Source of the DNA: Caldilineaceae bacterium
GTDB taxonomy: Bacteria > Chloroflexota > Anaerolineae > Caldilineales > Caldilineaceae
Assembly (NCBI GenBank): GCA_022824685.1
Contig: JAJDZJ010000073.1
Span: 1 to 33,287, forward strand
DNA length: 33,287 nt
Reading direction: 5' to 3'
Positions 14,569-32,947 of the stretch are shown piece after piece; positions within the stretch are counted from its first letter, which is position 1, and each line of letters opens with the position of its first letter. The notes below the pieces were generated by a model. It ran no database searches, had not been told where the DNA came from, and worked only from the letters and a program-made list of their open reading frames with translations. The translations under genes were made by a program, and so were the position numbers.

Positions 14569-14580
14569 GAACAAATGTTC
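14569..14580 (-). promoter_or_regulatory. SOS box (LexA operator) of uvrA
   Basis: GAACATTTGTTC on the minus strand is a perfect GAACNNNNGTTC, placed about +4 to +15 of the predicted transcript, where bound LexA would block initiation or escape. Confidence 0.88.
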
Positions 14581-18275: not shown

Positions 18276-19400
18276 ATGACACCTGTACGTTATCACTCAG
18301 GACGGTTTCCGCCGCAGAATCTGGACTGGCAGAGGTTAGTGCCGCTTATCGGTCCGGCCCATGCCGCCGTAGCCGGCTATGAAGGGATGTTGAAAGGGCT
18401 TCCCAATGCCAATGTGCTTCTGTCGCCTCTTGCCTCGCAAGAAGCTGTCCTTTCCAGCCGCATAGAAGGCACACAGACGACCCTGACCGAACTCTTGACA
18501 TTCGAGGCGGAGGGAGACTTGTCGGACGAGAGCACACCGGCAAAAGCCGACGTTCGTGAGGTTCTCAATTATCGACTAGCTCTTTATGCCGCAATCGACA
18601 TGTTGAAGGAAATCCCCCTGTCACAGAGGTTGGTCCGAGCTTCACATGAGGTTCTCATGCAGGGCGTACGGGGCTATAACAAAGCGCCCGGCAACTATCG
18701 CCGCCTGCCCGACACCTGTTGGATTGGGCCGCCGGGCTCGACGATTGAAACGGCTCGGTATATCCCCTGTCCGGTCGAAGAGTTGAACTCCGCGATGGAT
18801 ATCCTGGAGTCCTATTTGCACGAAGAGCCGCTGGACAGGCTTGTACAACTCGCCGTTATCCACGCAGAATTCGAAGCCATCCATCCTTTCCTGGACGGCA
18901 ACGGACGGATGGGGCGGTTGATCGTTCCTCTTTTCATGTTTACAAAGCAGCTCCTATCTTCCCCGAGCTTCTATATCAGCGAATATCTTGAGAGTCACCG
19001 TGATGAGTACTACGATGGTTTGCTAGCGGTGTCGCGCGACGGTGATTGGACCGGTTGGTGCGTGTTTTTCCTGACCGCCGTGACGGAGCAGGCGCGAACA
19101 TACCAGCAGAAAAGCCAGGATCTGCTAACGCTCTACAGCGAACTCAGAGACCTGGTGGTGGAGGTAGTCCCGTCCCAGTACAGTGGCAGAGCGCTTGATT
19201 GGATATTCAACAAGCCGATTTTTCGTTCAATCGACTTTGTAAACGGCGCCGAAATCCCCAAATCTACTGCGCGGCGGCTACTAAACCTTTTCAAGACGCG
19301 TGGTTTGTTGAAGGAGTTGAGACAAGGCGGTGGCCGCCGCTCTTCCATACTTGCCTTCCCTGAGTTGCTCAACATCGCAGAAGGCCGAAAGGTCTTTTGA
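18276..19400 (+). CDS. Fic-family adenylyltransferase (class II) with winged-helix tail
   Basis: Fic enzymes usually transfer AMP from ATP to Ser, Thr or Tyr of a target protein. The catalytic motif HPFLDGNGRMGR spans residues 203-214 with the base H203, metal ligand D207 and R211/R214. The N-terminal Fic_N region carries an inhibitory motif of class II type, S60-x3-E64-G65 (SSRIEG), so the enzyme is self-restrained and needs no separate antitoxin. About 80 C-terminal residues resemble a winged helix (EIPKSTARRLLNLFKTRGLLKEL), suggesting DNA binding. The length of 374 residues is normal. The start is ATG at 18276 with a weak GAGAGTG. The gene is noticeably lower in GC than its neighbours and stands alone, consistent with transfer. 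Confidence 0.93.
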   Translation: MTPVRYHSGRFPPQNLDWQRLVPLIGPAHAAVAGYEGMLKGLPNANVLLSPLASQEAVLSSRIEGTQTTLTELLTFEAEGDLSDESTPAKADVREVLNYRLALYAAIDMLKEIPLSQRLVRASHEVLMQGVRGYNKAPGNYRRLPDTCWIGPPGSTIETARYIPCPVEELNSAMDILESYLHEEPLDRLVQLAVIHAEFEAIHPFLDGNGRMGRLIVPLFMFTKQLLSSPSFYISEYLESHRDEYYDGLLAVSRDGDWTGWCVFFLTAVTEQARTYQQKSQDLLTLYSELRDLVVEVVPSQYSGRALDWIFNKPIFRSIDFVNGAEIPKSTARRLLNLFKTRGLLKELRQGGGRRSSILAFPELLNIAEGRKVF

Positions 19401-29313: not shown

Positions 29314-29757
29314 TCAGATCAGGAGCAGAAGCAGCCCAACGAGGCCGATGAGGCCGGAGATGTGATCGATCTGGAGGATGAACCAGAGCGCGAGGCCATG
29401 CACGGCGATGCGCGCGGCCCAGACGCCCCAGCGGTGCGGCGCCGCGGCCAGCGCGGTGATCAGGACGAACCACAGGTAAGGAGTAAGTTGACCCCACTCC
29501 ATGCCGGTGCGCAGGAACTCCCATCCCGCCCAGACAAGTGAAATCGCCCGCAGCCCTGTGGCCGCGCCCACCCGGGGGTAGGCGGCGGCCAGGTGCGCCA
29601 GCCACGTCCACGGCGCGGCGTAGGGAGCGCCGATGAACCAGCAGGCGCCGACCGCGACGAGCCATTCCAGCGTGCCGGCCACCAGCGGCGCGACCGACAT
29701 CTGGCAGAAGAGGCCCCAGCCACGGTCCTGCTGTAAGAGGGATCTATAGGTAGCCAC
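29314..29757 (-). CDS. Small multi-pass membrane protein of unknown function (second gene of pair)
   Basis: Not recognised. The start is GTG at 29757 (VATYRSLLQQ), with GGAGGA five bases upstream; this overlaps the end of the preceding gene by 14 bases in another frame, so translation is coupled. The 147 residues hold four hydrophobic helices: VAGTLEWLVAVGACWFIG, then ATGLRAISLVWAGWEFL, YLWFVLITALAAA and IAVHGLALWFILQI, with a final ISGLIGLVGLLLLLI. There are no catalytic motifs. Together with the gene before it, it probably forms a two-component membrane complex. Function unknown. Confidence 0.7.
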   Translation of the reverse strand: MATYRSLLQQDRGWGLFCQMSVAPLVAGTLEWLVAVGACWFIGAPYAAPWTWLAHLAAAYPRVGAATGLRAISLVWAGWEFLRTGMEWGQLTPYLWFVLITALAAAPHRWGVWAARIAVHGLALWFILQIDHISGLIGLVGLLLLLI

Positions 29758-30352
29758 GCATCTCCTCCAGGGCCTCGTCGCCCAGTGTTTTGGCGGCGCT
29801 GGCCATGTAGGCCAGCTGTTCCGAGACCAGGGACGAGAAGGCAAAAAAGAGGTTGAAAGCCCGCAGCGGCGTGGTCAGATAGAAGCTGGCGTCGGTCGCC
29901 ATGTCGAAAATCTGGGACGGCCAGTAGAGCGCGATCAGGAAGGACATGCCCGACCACTCCTTGGCCAGCTTGCCGTACTCGATCGTAAAGACCGAACCGT
30001 AGTTGGCGCTGTTGAACTTCAGGCTTTTGCGTCCGAGGATGGAGCCGATCAGCCAGACGTAGAAGCCGACGCCCGCCATGTAAGGATTGGTCTTGGCGCG
30101 GTAGGCCATGCCGCTCGACACCATCTGGATGCCGGTGGTGAGCATCCAGATGAGCATGGTCATGATGACGCCCCAGTTCGAGATCGGGTTGTTGAAGAGG
30201 TAAAAGAGGGTCTCCCCCTGGATGCGGCCCTGGACCCAACCCATGCTTCCGAGGAGGTCGGCCACGAACATGGCGGCCACCAGGGCCAGAATTGGTCTTG
30301 AGGAGAGGAGGGCAACACGTCCGATCGAGGTTTTGGCGATATCGTTTTTCAT
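29744..30352 (-). CDS. Membrane protein of unknown function (first gene of pair)
   Basis: Not recognised. The ATG at 30352 (MKNDIAKTSIGR) is chosen since AAGGAG lies six bases upstream and a promoter places the transcript start near 30428; an earlier in-frame ATG at 30436 would sit at the -10. The 202 residues have about five hydrophobic segments, at roughly residues 20-38, 60-80, 92-110, 140-155 and 168-190 (for example RPILALVAAMFVADLL and NWGVIMTMLIWMLTTGI). Loops are Asn/Tyr-rich (KFNSANYGSVFTIEYGKL). The end (EALEEMRGYL) overlaps the next gene. The promoter contains an SOS-box-like sequence. Function unknown. Confidence 0.72.
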   Translation of the reverse strand: MKNDIAKTSIGRVALLSSRPILALVAAMFVADLLGSMGWVQGRIQGETLFYLFNNPISNWGVIMTMLIWMLTTGIQMVSSGMAYRAKTNPYMAGVGFYVWLIGSILGRKSLKFNSANYGSVFTIEYGKLAKEWSGMSFLIALYWPSQIFDMATDASFYLTTPLRAFNLFFAFSSLVSEQLAYMASAAKTLGDEALEEMRGYL

Positions 30353-30434
30353 GGTTCGCTCCTTGGAAGTTCCGTCGAGCAACTGATCTGCGATTGATGC
30401 CGGCGGCTGCCGGTCTGCGATGCGATATTCTGAC

Positions 30435-30463
30435 ATATTAGCACATTTGTTCTACTATGTCAA
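30435..30463 (-). promoter_or_regulatory. Strong promoter of the membrane-protein pair
   Basis: Minus strand: perfect -35 TTGACA (30463-30458), a 17-base spacer and -10 TAATAT (30440-30435). Confidence 0.8.
30441..30452 (-). promoter_or_regulatory. SOS-box-like sequence in the promoter of the membrane-protein pair
   Basis: GAACAAATGTGC on the minus strand differs from GAACNNNNGTTC at one position. It touches the -10, exactly as the recA box does. Confidence 0.5.
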
Positions 30464-30875
30464 GGGGAACTGGCCGGGAAATTGCAGCGAATTTCAAGAG
30501 TGCGGCAAATCTGGCGCTGGAATGAGGACAAGCAGCAGCGCTTCCGCTAGCGGTTCTGAGGTCGACGGACTCTGCGAAGGAATCGTGCGGGCGTTGCTCG
30601 GGGCTGTTCTGGGGATTATGGATAACATGTACCCGAATGGGCGAAGCGCTGCGCCTTCGGCGGCGAGGAGCGGTCAAACCCTTTTTCTGTTGGCGATTCA
30701 GGGCTTGGACGATAATGGCGCATTCCGGTAATCAAGAGATGACGATACTGGTATAGCAACTCTCAGCGCAGTGAAATCCGCAGCTGCGCAGCCCGCGCGT
30801 CAGGAGAAGAATTGGGGGAAGCAGACTGTGGCTTGCAGTGGGGAAGGCGTTCTGTCCAAGGCGAGGACGTCAGTT

Positions 30876-30905
30876 TTGGCACAATTGGAACAAATGCGCT
30901 AGAAT
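30876..30905 (+). promoter_or_regulatory. Promoter of the DUF6978-like/DUF1828-like pair
   Basis: TTGGCA (30876-30881), an 18-base spacer and TAGAAT (30900-30905). The -35 and spacer length are identical to those of recA. Transcription should start near 30912, giving a leader of about 165 bases. Confidence 0.65.
30888..30899 (+). promoter_or_regulatory. Degenerate SOS-box-like sequence
   Basis: GAACAAATGCGC keeps the left half GAAC and differs at two positions in the right half. It also touches the -10. Confidence 0.35.
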
Positions 30906-30923
30906 TGCTTTCTGGATTGGTCG

Positions 30924-30959
30924 GGGCGCCGGGTGGCGCCCATGAACATTTTCAAATGT
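30924..30959 (+). promoter_or_regulatory. Leader hairpin plus palindrome ahead of the DUF6978-like gene
   Basis: A GGGCGCC-GGGT-GGCGCCC hairpin (30924-30941) begins about 12 bases into the predicted transcript. The inverted repeat ACATTT-TC-AAATGT (30946-30959) follows closely and could be an operator for the product of either downstream gene. No other gene is supported in 30464-31077. Confidence 0.4.
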
Positions 30960-31077
30960 CCAGCAAGGCGAAGAGGTGTCCGCTGCTTTGAGCGGAAAAG
31001 AGTGAATTTCGGACCCAATCCGGCTCTCTTCGAGTAGAGACCCTCAACGAAAAATCCCCTTGTAACAGGAGATATAG

Positions 31078-31614
31078 TTGCCCTATAATATCGCCACGCT
31101 ACCAGAAAGACCGACGATGACCGAGCAGGAGATTCAGAATCTGCTTGACATTCCTAAGACGATTGGCGAGAAGACCCCTGCCAGAGGATATAAAGAGGAA
31201 AACAACCAGAAACGCTGCGACCTGGAGTTGGAAACCAATTCGCTCGACAACGAGAAATTCTCGGTTTTCATTCGCCGTCACAACACATACATCGAAAACT
31301 TTTCCATAGGGTTACGCTACCATAGCAGCGGAAAAGCGCTAAAGGTAATTACTCTGGTCCGCTACAACGGCGCGCACGGAGAATCAAGTTTGCATCCAGA
31401 TGGTCATTACGCTCTACCGCACATTCACCGCATAACCGCACAAGAGTTAGCATCTGGAAGCAGTCACCCGCAAGAACGCCATCGAGAAATTACGAACCGA
31501 TACAGTACATTCGAGCAGGCTCTCCGTATCTTCTTTGAAGACGTCGGTGTGACAAACTACGCCGAGTTCTTCCCCGAAGCGCTTCAACCGAGGCTTTTCG
31601 ATGAACATTCGTAG
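31078..31614 (+). CDS. DUF6978-like protein
   Basis: Resembles the small DUF6978 family of accessory genomes: an N-terminal helix (EQEIQNLLDIPKTIG), then a beta-rich region (LELETNSLDNEKFSVFIRRH, FSIGLRYHS, LKVITLVRYNGAHG) and HPDGHYALPHIHRI. Neither enzymatic motifs nor a signal peptide are seen. Two starts are possible: TTG at 31078, with GGAG six bases upstream (used here), or ATG at 31117 (MTEQEIQN), which has a weak signal. It overlaps the next gene by 14 bases, so the two are translationally coupled. GC is lower than in the housekeeping genes around, suggesting transfer. The family name is from memory of its pattern and is not certain. Confidence 0.65.
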   Translation: MPYNIATLPERPTMTEQEIQNLLDIPKTIGEKTPARGYKEENNQKRCDLELETNSLDNEKFSVFIRRHNTYIENFSIGLRYHSSGKALKVITLVRYNGAHGESSLHPDGHYALPHIHRITAQELASGSSHPQERHREITNRYSTFEQALRIFFEDVGVTNYAEFFPEALQPRLFDEHS

Positions 31615-32374
31615 CGTTCGAGAATCCTTGAATACGCCCCTCTCCGCCGGTTTCGACCTCTACGAACGTCGCCCCGGCAAGCATCAACTCATCCTTCCAA
31701 TCCACCATGAAGACGGGGACATGGTGGAGATCTACCTGCAGGACAGCCCAAAGGGGGATGGATACGTCCGTATCTGCGACTACGGCCTGACCCTTATGCG
31801 TCTTTCCTACACCTACGAAATCTCCACCCCCACGCGGCAGCAGATTTTCGACAGCATCCTCATCAATAACGATGTAGGCAATGAGGAGGGCAACCTCTAT
31901 ATAGACGCCCCCATCCACAAACTCGCCGAGAGCATACTTCAGTTCGCAGGTTGCGCGCAGAAAGTATGCAATATGCGCTATTGGAGTCGAGAAATCACTC
32001 GCAGTGCCTTCTACGATGACCTGGAAGCCTACGTCACATCCCATTTAAGAATCTTCTCTCCCAATGCCAATCAGTTTCCCTTGCCTGATTACCCTGTCGG
32101 CGTAGACTGGTCTCTGAAGCTAGACAGCTGGAACTTTTTCGTGTTTGGAGTCCGCGGCAACGATAAGGCAAAGGTCGTCGCGCTTGCGCTTCTTGAATTT
32201 CAGAAGGCTGAACTGTTGTTCACCAGTCTAATCGTCCACGAGGAAATGGAAGCGCTGGGCAAGAAAGAATACATTTTCCTCACTCGCAACGCCGACAAGC
32301 AGTATCCCGGACTGAAGGACTTCCAGAAGTCAAGCCCTAAAGATATTCCCCGGCTTGTCGGTGTCCCCGCGTAG
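31601..32374 (+). CDS. DUF1828-like protein
   Basis: A 257-residue protein whose first part matches the DUF1828 pattern: FDLYERRPGKHQLILPIHHEDGDMVEIYLQD, then GYVRICDYGLTLMRLSY. This is followed by a helical region and a C-terminal domain (DWSLKLDSWNFFVFGVRG and KAKVVALALLEF) that may correspond to DUF1829. The role of this family is unknown; members often lie on mobile elements and prophages. The ATG at 31601 has GAGG eight bases upstream and lies inside the end of the preceding gene. The strict overlap of the two genes, their isolated position and low GC resemble two-gene toxin-antitoxin or defence modules, but nothing in the sequence proves this. Confidence 0.65.
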   Translation: MNIRSVRESLNTPLSAGFDLYERRPGKHQLILPIHHEDGDMVEIYLQDSPKGDGYVRICDYGLTLMRLSYTYEISTPTRQQIFDSILINNDVGNEEGNLYIDAPIHKLAESILQFAGCAQKVCNMRYWSREITRSAFYDDLEAYVTSHLRIFSPNANQFPLPDYPVGVDWSLKLDSWNFFVFGVRGNDKAKVVALALLEFQKAELLFTSLIVHEEMEALGKKEYIFLTRNADKQYPGLKDFQKSSPKDIPRLVGVPA

Positions 32375-32798
32375 TGATTTCCAGCCTTGACGCCAAGATA
32401 GCATGGAATGTGTCCTCGGCGCCGAGATGTCCAGCTCCAGCCCGCCGATCTATACTTCGGCTATGGGTTCATCCCACCCGCTGTCTCTTTTAACTCCCCC
32501 TGACTCCTCTTCTGACCCCGCTTCCGTCACGTAACACTCCCTCCTTCCTCTTCCCTGAGTCTTCTCATCCCGTCCTATCGAGATTTACCACCCCCATTCT
32601 GGACTGCATTCATCAAGACGGGTTAAGTTCGAGTATAGACACCTTGTTGACTTCACAACGCAGAGGGGAAAACCAGCTTTGCGCCTGGCCCTGGTTTCGA
32701 GGTCACTGGTTTCAACATTTGGATTGCGGTGAAAGCGTACCCGGACGTCTGACGACCGATTGGTCCGGCGCCGCTCTTTGAACCAGGTAAAGGTTGGA

Positions 32799-32864
32799 AT
32801 GACCCAAATACAGATCGAAATCCCTGATTCTGATCGCGAGCGCTTCGGTCGTCAAGCGCGGCGG
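32799..32864 (+). pseudogene. Fragment resembling the start of a ribbon-helix-helix antitoxin
   Basis: MTQIQIEIPDSDRERFGRQA is like the beta strand and first helix of CopG/RHH-type antitoxins (a run of alternating hydrophobic residues, then PDS...RFxxxA). The frame then passes into the C-rich repeat region, giving a Pro-rich low-complexity tail. It is probably a truncated gene. A single 20-residue match is weak evidence. Confidence 0.35.
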
Positions 32865-32947
32865 GCAGACTTCCCCCGCCCCTCCCCCGCAGTTCCCCGT
32901 GCCCCATGCATCCCTCACCCCTCCCTTACTCCGCAAACCCCCTGTAG

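Follow-up and report, generated by a model that had tools for sequence, protein, structure and literature searches.

We analysed a 33,287-nucleotide stretch of a Caldilineaceae genome (contig JAJDZJ010000073.1, positions 1 to 33,287), referred to below as the window. Two plus-strand genes, here called A and B, lie near its right end and overlap by 14 nt, the stop codon of A occupying 31612-31614 and the ATG of B beginning at 31601. The features of the locus are as follows.

30469..32630, no strand assigned: inserted segment of 2.16 kb that carries the module and is absent from sister genome G413 (flank comparison)
30876..30905, plus strand: promoter TTGGCA-18-TAGAAT with a conserved ACA(A/T)ATG(T/C)GCTA element abutting the -10 (pattern scan, comparison of copies)
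30924..30941, no strand assigned: perfect inverted repeat in the leader, GGGCGCC-4-GGCGCCC, with 7-bp arms (sequence scan)
31078..31614, plus strand: gene A, DUF6978 family / PDC-M24A, putatively TumE-like, with a probable TTG start at 31078 and AGGAG upstream
31601..32374, plus strand: gene B, DUF1828 / PDC-M24B, with a predicted N-terminal domain of type III secretion (T3S) chaperone-like fold and a C-terminal PD-(D/E)XK-like domain without ExK
32799..32870, plus strand: remnant of an antitoxin-like gene, from its 5' end (MTQIQIEIPDSDRERF...); sister genomes have the complete gene at this site, ahead of a PIN-domain gene

The original prediction described a low-GC module of two genes overlapping by 14 bases, a description that the coordinates and base composition bear out. 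The GC content of the pair is 0.512, compared with 0.629 for window positions 1-30400, and the lowest value of any 1,297-bp stretch in that interval (0.529) is still above that of the pair. GC3 is 0.56 and 0.65 in the two genes and about 0.8 in housekeeping neighbours. The overlap suggests that A and B are co-transcribed and, together with the small size of the genes, their mobility and their patchy distribution, conforms to what is expected of a type II toxin-antitoxin locus. The start of A is most likely TTG 31078 rather than ATG 31117, since the ATG is replaced by CTG, GTG or TTG in relatives, while the AGGAG Shine-Dalgarno sequence and the N-terminal extension YNIAxLPExP are common to them. 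A TATAAT at 31084-31089 that emerged from a promoter scan was discarded as a promoter because it falls within the coding frame of A, after both the TTG start and the Shine-Dalgarno sequence that relatives share.

The promoter of the pair had been predicted to resemble that of recA, and the sequence confirms the likeness, with the same -35 and the same spacer length. The exact pattern TTGGCA-18-TAGAAT occurs once in the window and in none of 100 shuffles. recA occupies the window's left end, on the minus strand. Its promoter reads TTGGCA-18-TATAAT and carries the palindromic GAACACATGTTC within its spacer (448-459); in the promoter of the pair, GAACAAATGCGC (30888-30899) adjoins the -10. A perfect LexA-type box, GAACAAATGTTC, lies upstream of uvrA at 14569-14580, and this box and the recA palindrome suggest GAAC-N4-GTTC as the SOS box of the genus. 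The further suggestion of SOS control fared less well. The promoter likeness and the retention of an element at several sites speak for it, but GAACAAATGCGC differs from GAAC-N4-GTTC at 2 positions, short of a LexA/SOS operator, and no comparable LexA box stands against the -10 in any of 27 homologous upstream regions. We thus rejected a LexA operator as a general control element, while for the window copy the sequence is suggestive of LexA control. Nor did ACAAATGTGCTA behave as a genome-wide regulon, its 9 sites hardly exceeding the 8 of the reversed control. Both the window and a second contig of the same genome (C81) begin inside recA (positions 1-327 of each, with near-equal scores), reflecting a duplicated recA or else a break in the assembly.

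What is conserved is the promoter element itself. Seven copies at several sites retain it with 76-100% identity in most pairs (0.65 between the window copy and L024), whereas the flanking 25-mers are mostly 16-60% identical, at or near background, the syntenic pair L022/L023 excepted. Part of the element is an extended -10 (TGC-TANNNT), and the element could be an operator for autoregulation of the kind seen in type II toxin-antitoxin loci. It accompanies the module even in L026, where A is replaced, and is common to a neighbouring gene too. To the left of the module, a minus-strand, membrane-like gene without a Pfam match (29744-30436), present in 16/17 genus genomes, has a promoter at 30439-30465 (TTGACA-17-TAATAT) with GAACAAATGTGC, one base off the LexA box. 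The palindrome that had been noted in the leader is present at 30924-30941 but is not conserved among the relatives compared, and is incidental.

B matches Pfam DUF1828 well over the cutoff (E 2.5e-15). The A of the window falls below the DUF6978 cutoff (27.7 against 29.6 bits, E 3.6e-6), which some of its relatives exceed. In PADLOC, A matches PDC-M24A (1.8e-5, a weak match at 23 bits) and B matches PDC-M24B (1.8e-13). Homologues of M24A and M24B are thus adjacent here, and they are embedded in or near known defence systems, as expected of PDC-M24. PDCs are candidates nominated by 'guilt-by-embedding', most of whose members are without experimental test (PMC12988326). The original statement that the pair has no established function still holds experimentally, but the pair has already been catalogued as a candidate. 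Our literature search found no paper naming PDC-M24 and no function described for DUF6978 or DUF1828, and the PHROGs entries for both proteins are unknown-function families. Sequence relatives in the PDB were absent for A and at chance level for B, and a comparison of A with B gave no sign of common ancestry.

A comparison with sister genomes delimits the insertion. Homology to the flanks in G413 (94.5% identity) ends at 30468 and resumes at 32631, with 20 bp in place of the insert; G410 has 70 bp at this place, and in most sisters examined the left homology ends at 30464-30471. Close copies of the module are present in 9/17 genomes of the genus, and each A match has a neighbouring B match. 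Copies lie at several sites, namely that of the window (the window, L020, L021, L022 and L100, which share the left-flank homology), a glycosyltransferase site (L024, L025 and L032) and a type I restriction locus (L026). The left neighbour gene of the module is found in 16/17 genus genomes. nusA was considered as a fixed right neighbour of the site and set aside, as it was seen there in two sister genomes only. Beside the pair in the complete sister genome L100 (7061-8020) lie a gene for a restriction-endonuclease AHJR-like domain protein with a weak HEPN match and then a 77-aa open reading frame.

Other sisters carry different cargo at the window site, namely SoFic (L134, L137), Ppl (L141) and, in L136, an antitoxin-like gene followed by one for a PIN-domain protein; by eye, the site cargo of L139, L021 and L140 looks similar. 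This cargo, together with the remnant of the antitoxin-like gene at 32799..32870, indicates that the pair sits in a hot spot where defence and toxin-antitoxin genes are inserted.

We detected B in 13 of 400 sampled Chloroflexota genomes, that of the window included. A lies directly upstream of B in 9 of the 10 assessable genomes among the 12 others (L082, at a contig edge, and L090, with a distant DUF1828 only, were left out); L089 has a broken B and yielded no A. Pairs also occur in viral contigs (L104-L107 and L109-L115), in Pseudomonas phages 5399 and 5371, where the pair immediately follows cI, in Staphylococcus prophage-like records, where it lies between repressor and integrase, and in the haloarchaeal Halorubrum virus Humcor1. 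A further pair is carried by the conjugative IncP plasmid pRSB223; plasmid homologues were reached only through intermediates, the window's own proteins retrieving none as queries. In a plasmid-like prophage of Staphylococcus epidermidis (L128, 2953-3417), the DUF6978 gene is annotated as 78 aa within an open frame of 155 codons, and its annotated start is probably wrong. The pair is thus conserved together and outside stable core positions, the two points on which the original prediction had staked itself.

The surroundings of the pair are rich in defence genes. Hma genes enclose it in L088 (order HmaC, HmaB, pair, HmaA) and L098 (HmaB, pair, HmaC), and HmaB adjoins it in L084. A type III methyltransferase lies directly downstream in L083 and in the L091-L094 lineage (L083 and L091 were scanned). 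In L026, B sits beside a type I methyltransferase, a specificity subunit, SoFic, PDC-S20 and HEC-01A. With HmaB cases excluded from the count, 3/12 pairs have a PF01555 DNA methylase no more than 5.5 kb away, compared with an expectation of at most 3.3% per pair given a base rate of 101 matches in 36.2 Mb (P ~0.006). The clustering with defence genes and mobile elements that had been proposed as a check is therefore evident in the Hma genes, the type III and type I restriction loci, the phage lysogeny modules and the SoFic/Ppl site, and we consider a defence association of the pair well supported.

Two further loci of the same genome belong to this context. The window contains a low-GC Fic gene (18276-19400, plus strand) that matches the SoFic family (1e-104) and has a paralogue beside hsdR on contig C66. 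That contig also holds another DUF1828 gene, unaccompanied by DUF6978 (L006, 10376-11152); a Fic gene lies upstream of it, and a gene for an HsdR-like protein of type I restriction follows directly downstream.

The pair might instead play no part in defence and serve prophages and islands as an accessory for lysogeny or regulation, such as a maintenance module linked to the repressor. Such an accessory could explain why pairs lie beside cI, S24 repressors and integrases and why the conserved promoter element is shared with a neighbouring gene. Embedding among Hma genes and restriction loci would be unexpected of it, as would an insertion site common to SoFic and Ppl, and we regard this account as improbable.

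A is modelled with seven strands and two main helices (pLDDT 85.6, pTM 0.82). In a fold search against a PDB Foldseek shortlist and a viral library, nothing in the PDB shortlist exceeded Z 6.5 and nothing viral was found; DUF3836 proteins, at Z 6.5, were rejected as a fold match, likely sharing a common arrangement. TumE, a validated translation-blocking toxin, has been described as two helices on a seven-stranded antiparallel sheet, without a PDB match (PMC10584680). In its seven strands, two main helices and lack of a clear PDB match, the model of A resembles this published description of TumE (DUF6516). The motif RYNG...H...PHIH of A also resembles RYDN...H...PHHKH of TumE, in the same order. 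A Halorubrum virus protein provides a bridge between the families: it matches DUF6978 at 2.6e-15 and TumE at 0.0028, and is the top non-TumE match of the TumE profile among 3,652 open reading frames. The best A homologue falls short of the TumE Pfam cutoff (18.1 against 23.4 bits), and profile-profile comparison (hhalign) did not place A within TumE (E 0.29, not significant). The similarities weakly suggest that A is homologous to TumE, and A is probably a TumE-like toxic effector.

B comprises two predicted domains whose mutual arrangement is uncertain (pLDDT 86.6, pTM 0.59). The N-terminal domain of the model has a fold like that of class I type III secretion chaperones (Z 7-9 over ~100 residues), such as Spa15, InvB, CesT and SycE, from which it differs in its unrelated sequence, in its fusion to a second domain and in its strictly conserved D38-G39-D40, D60 and G97. 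The C-terminal domain is modelled with a PD-(D/E)XK fold (Z 7-10 over ~115 residues) like that of Can2/Card1/Cdn1, Bax1 and restriction enzymes. Unlike PD-(D/E)XK nucleases, it has no acidic ExK, and D169, the first Asp, alone is invariant. An alignment of 40 homologues shows little or no variation at D38-G39-D40, D60, G97, F137 and D169, whereas the ExK strand is hydrophobic and the catalytic D...(D/E)XK arrangement is lacking. For want of the ExK, we rejected B as an active nuclease. In the B homologues of S. epidermidis and pRSB223 the C-terminal domain is recognised by DUF1829, the window's own B being too diverged to match.

The pattern of gene loss bears on which gene is the effector. 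A has been lost about five or six times with B intact and the reverse has occurred once only, in L098, where A is intact and B is interrupted. In L020, A was removed by a 670-bp deletion that includes the promoter. A is truncated or replaced beside an open B in L021, in L026 and in the L091-L094 and L097/L099 lineages. The replacement in L026 (6830-8011) is an HNH endonuclease domain protein in frame with the last ~20 residues of A, just upstream of the intact B; from the reading frame, this protein is a natural replacement of A. A is broken in L025 as well, where B is 20 codons short. Allowing for gene length, the skew towards A is suggestive, with a one-sided P of 0.045 for 5/6 loss events and 0.02 for 6/7. 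B is thus unlikely to be a free toxin.

These losses weigh against the opposite assignment, in which B would be the toxin and A the antitoxin. An antitoxin-first order is the commoner one and B has a nuclease-like fold, as that assignment would have it. A lethal B would not permit repeated loss of A with B intact and conserved; the natural A-less genomes suggest a harmless B, and the ExK of the nuclease-like fold is missing in the 40 homologues. We consider a toxic B very improbable.

Selection on B after the loss of A raises a different alternative. In L091-L094, A is a remnant in all four genomes, three of which have no A match anywhere, and B evolves under purifying selection (dN/dS 0.09-0.17 at dS 0.2-0.5), which indicates that B keeps a function without A. 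Taken with the DUF1828 gene beside hsdR that lacks an A partner, this indicates that B does more than neutralise A and is not only its antidote. The module could thus be a defence system other than a toxin-antitoxin one, with B as the core (a sensor or adaptor able to act by itself or in concert with a restriction system) and A as an optional accessory enzyme. The persistence of B under purifying selection once A is lost fits this account, as do A-less DUF1828 proteins in restriction contexts (L006 and others), and DS-5 offers a precedent, a nuclease with a partner whose deletion abolishes defence without unleashing toxicity (PMC13092281). An accessory A sits less well with A being intact beside B in most distant lineages, viruses included, which implies that A is usually selected, and with its TumE-like features. 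We consider this arrangement a serious possibility, though an unlikely one.

The explanation that we put forward is that A and B form a horizontally moved, defence-associated module of the toxin-antitoxin type that acts against phages, with A as effector and B as regulator. A would be toxic, an alpha/beta protein of TumE-like type whose action on RNA probably stops translation. The role of B would be to bind and restrain A, for which it would probably use the chaperone-like N-terminal domain; its catalytically degenerate PD-(D/E)XK-like domain would probably bind nucleic acid, for infection sensing or for promoter repression. Infection would then free A and the cell would be halted before phage release. 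Counted against this reading are the link between A and TumE, which lies below family cutoffs and is not significant by hhalign, the purifying selection on B where A is a remnant, and the gene order, in which the toxin would come first although it usually comes second. The original prediction of a toxin-antitoxin or defence module is thus strengthened by pairing, mobility, lysogeny modules, embedding in Hma and restriction loci and the SoFic/Ppl site, while its mechanistic part is moderately supported. We judge the full explanation about evenly poised between right and wrong, and would give the toxin-antitoxin mechanism, taken separately, an even chance. A bolder extension, which we offer tentatively and think rather unlikely to hold in full, is that B represents a new kind of defence regulator, in which a chaperone-like domain and a dead nuclease-like domain restrain or fold a TumE-like toxin and sense phage nucleic acid, and which is reused alone as an accessory of type I and type III restriction after loss of the toxin.

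The pair was also compared with known systems. In TumE-TumA, TumE mostly follows its partner, whereas A precedes its own, which is a two-domain DUF1828 protein rather than TumA. In the phage-defence system DS-6/HipAD, DUF1829 occurs in DS-6B, the proposed antitoxin-like partner of a HipA-like toxin kinase (PMC13092281). The likeness is that DUF1829, in the non-kinase partner of that system, corresponds to the C-terminal domain of B homologues; the difference is that the window pair has no HipA kinase and no DUF3037, and thus is not a HipAD system. With the PADLOC candidate PDC-M24, both genes match, are adjacent and stand in identical order, and we found no difference.

The pair thus belongs to a candidate that was already catalogued. 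New in the present work are the folds assigned to both proteins, the links to TumE and DUF1829, the pattern of gene loss, the promoter element that travels with the module, and the occupied and empty states of the site. PDC-M24 is one of many candidate defence systems, and its polarity, with A as putative effector and B as putative regulator, is now testable. The pairs borne by Pseudomonas phages would permit a direct test, and natural variants lacking A or lacking B are now at hand, as is an insertion site seen both occupied and empty. The candidate also gains predicted domain identities for both proteins and, through these, a link to two studied families, TumE and the DUF1829 of HipAD.
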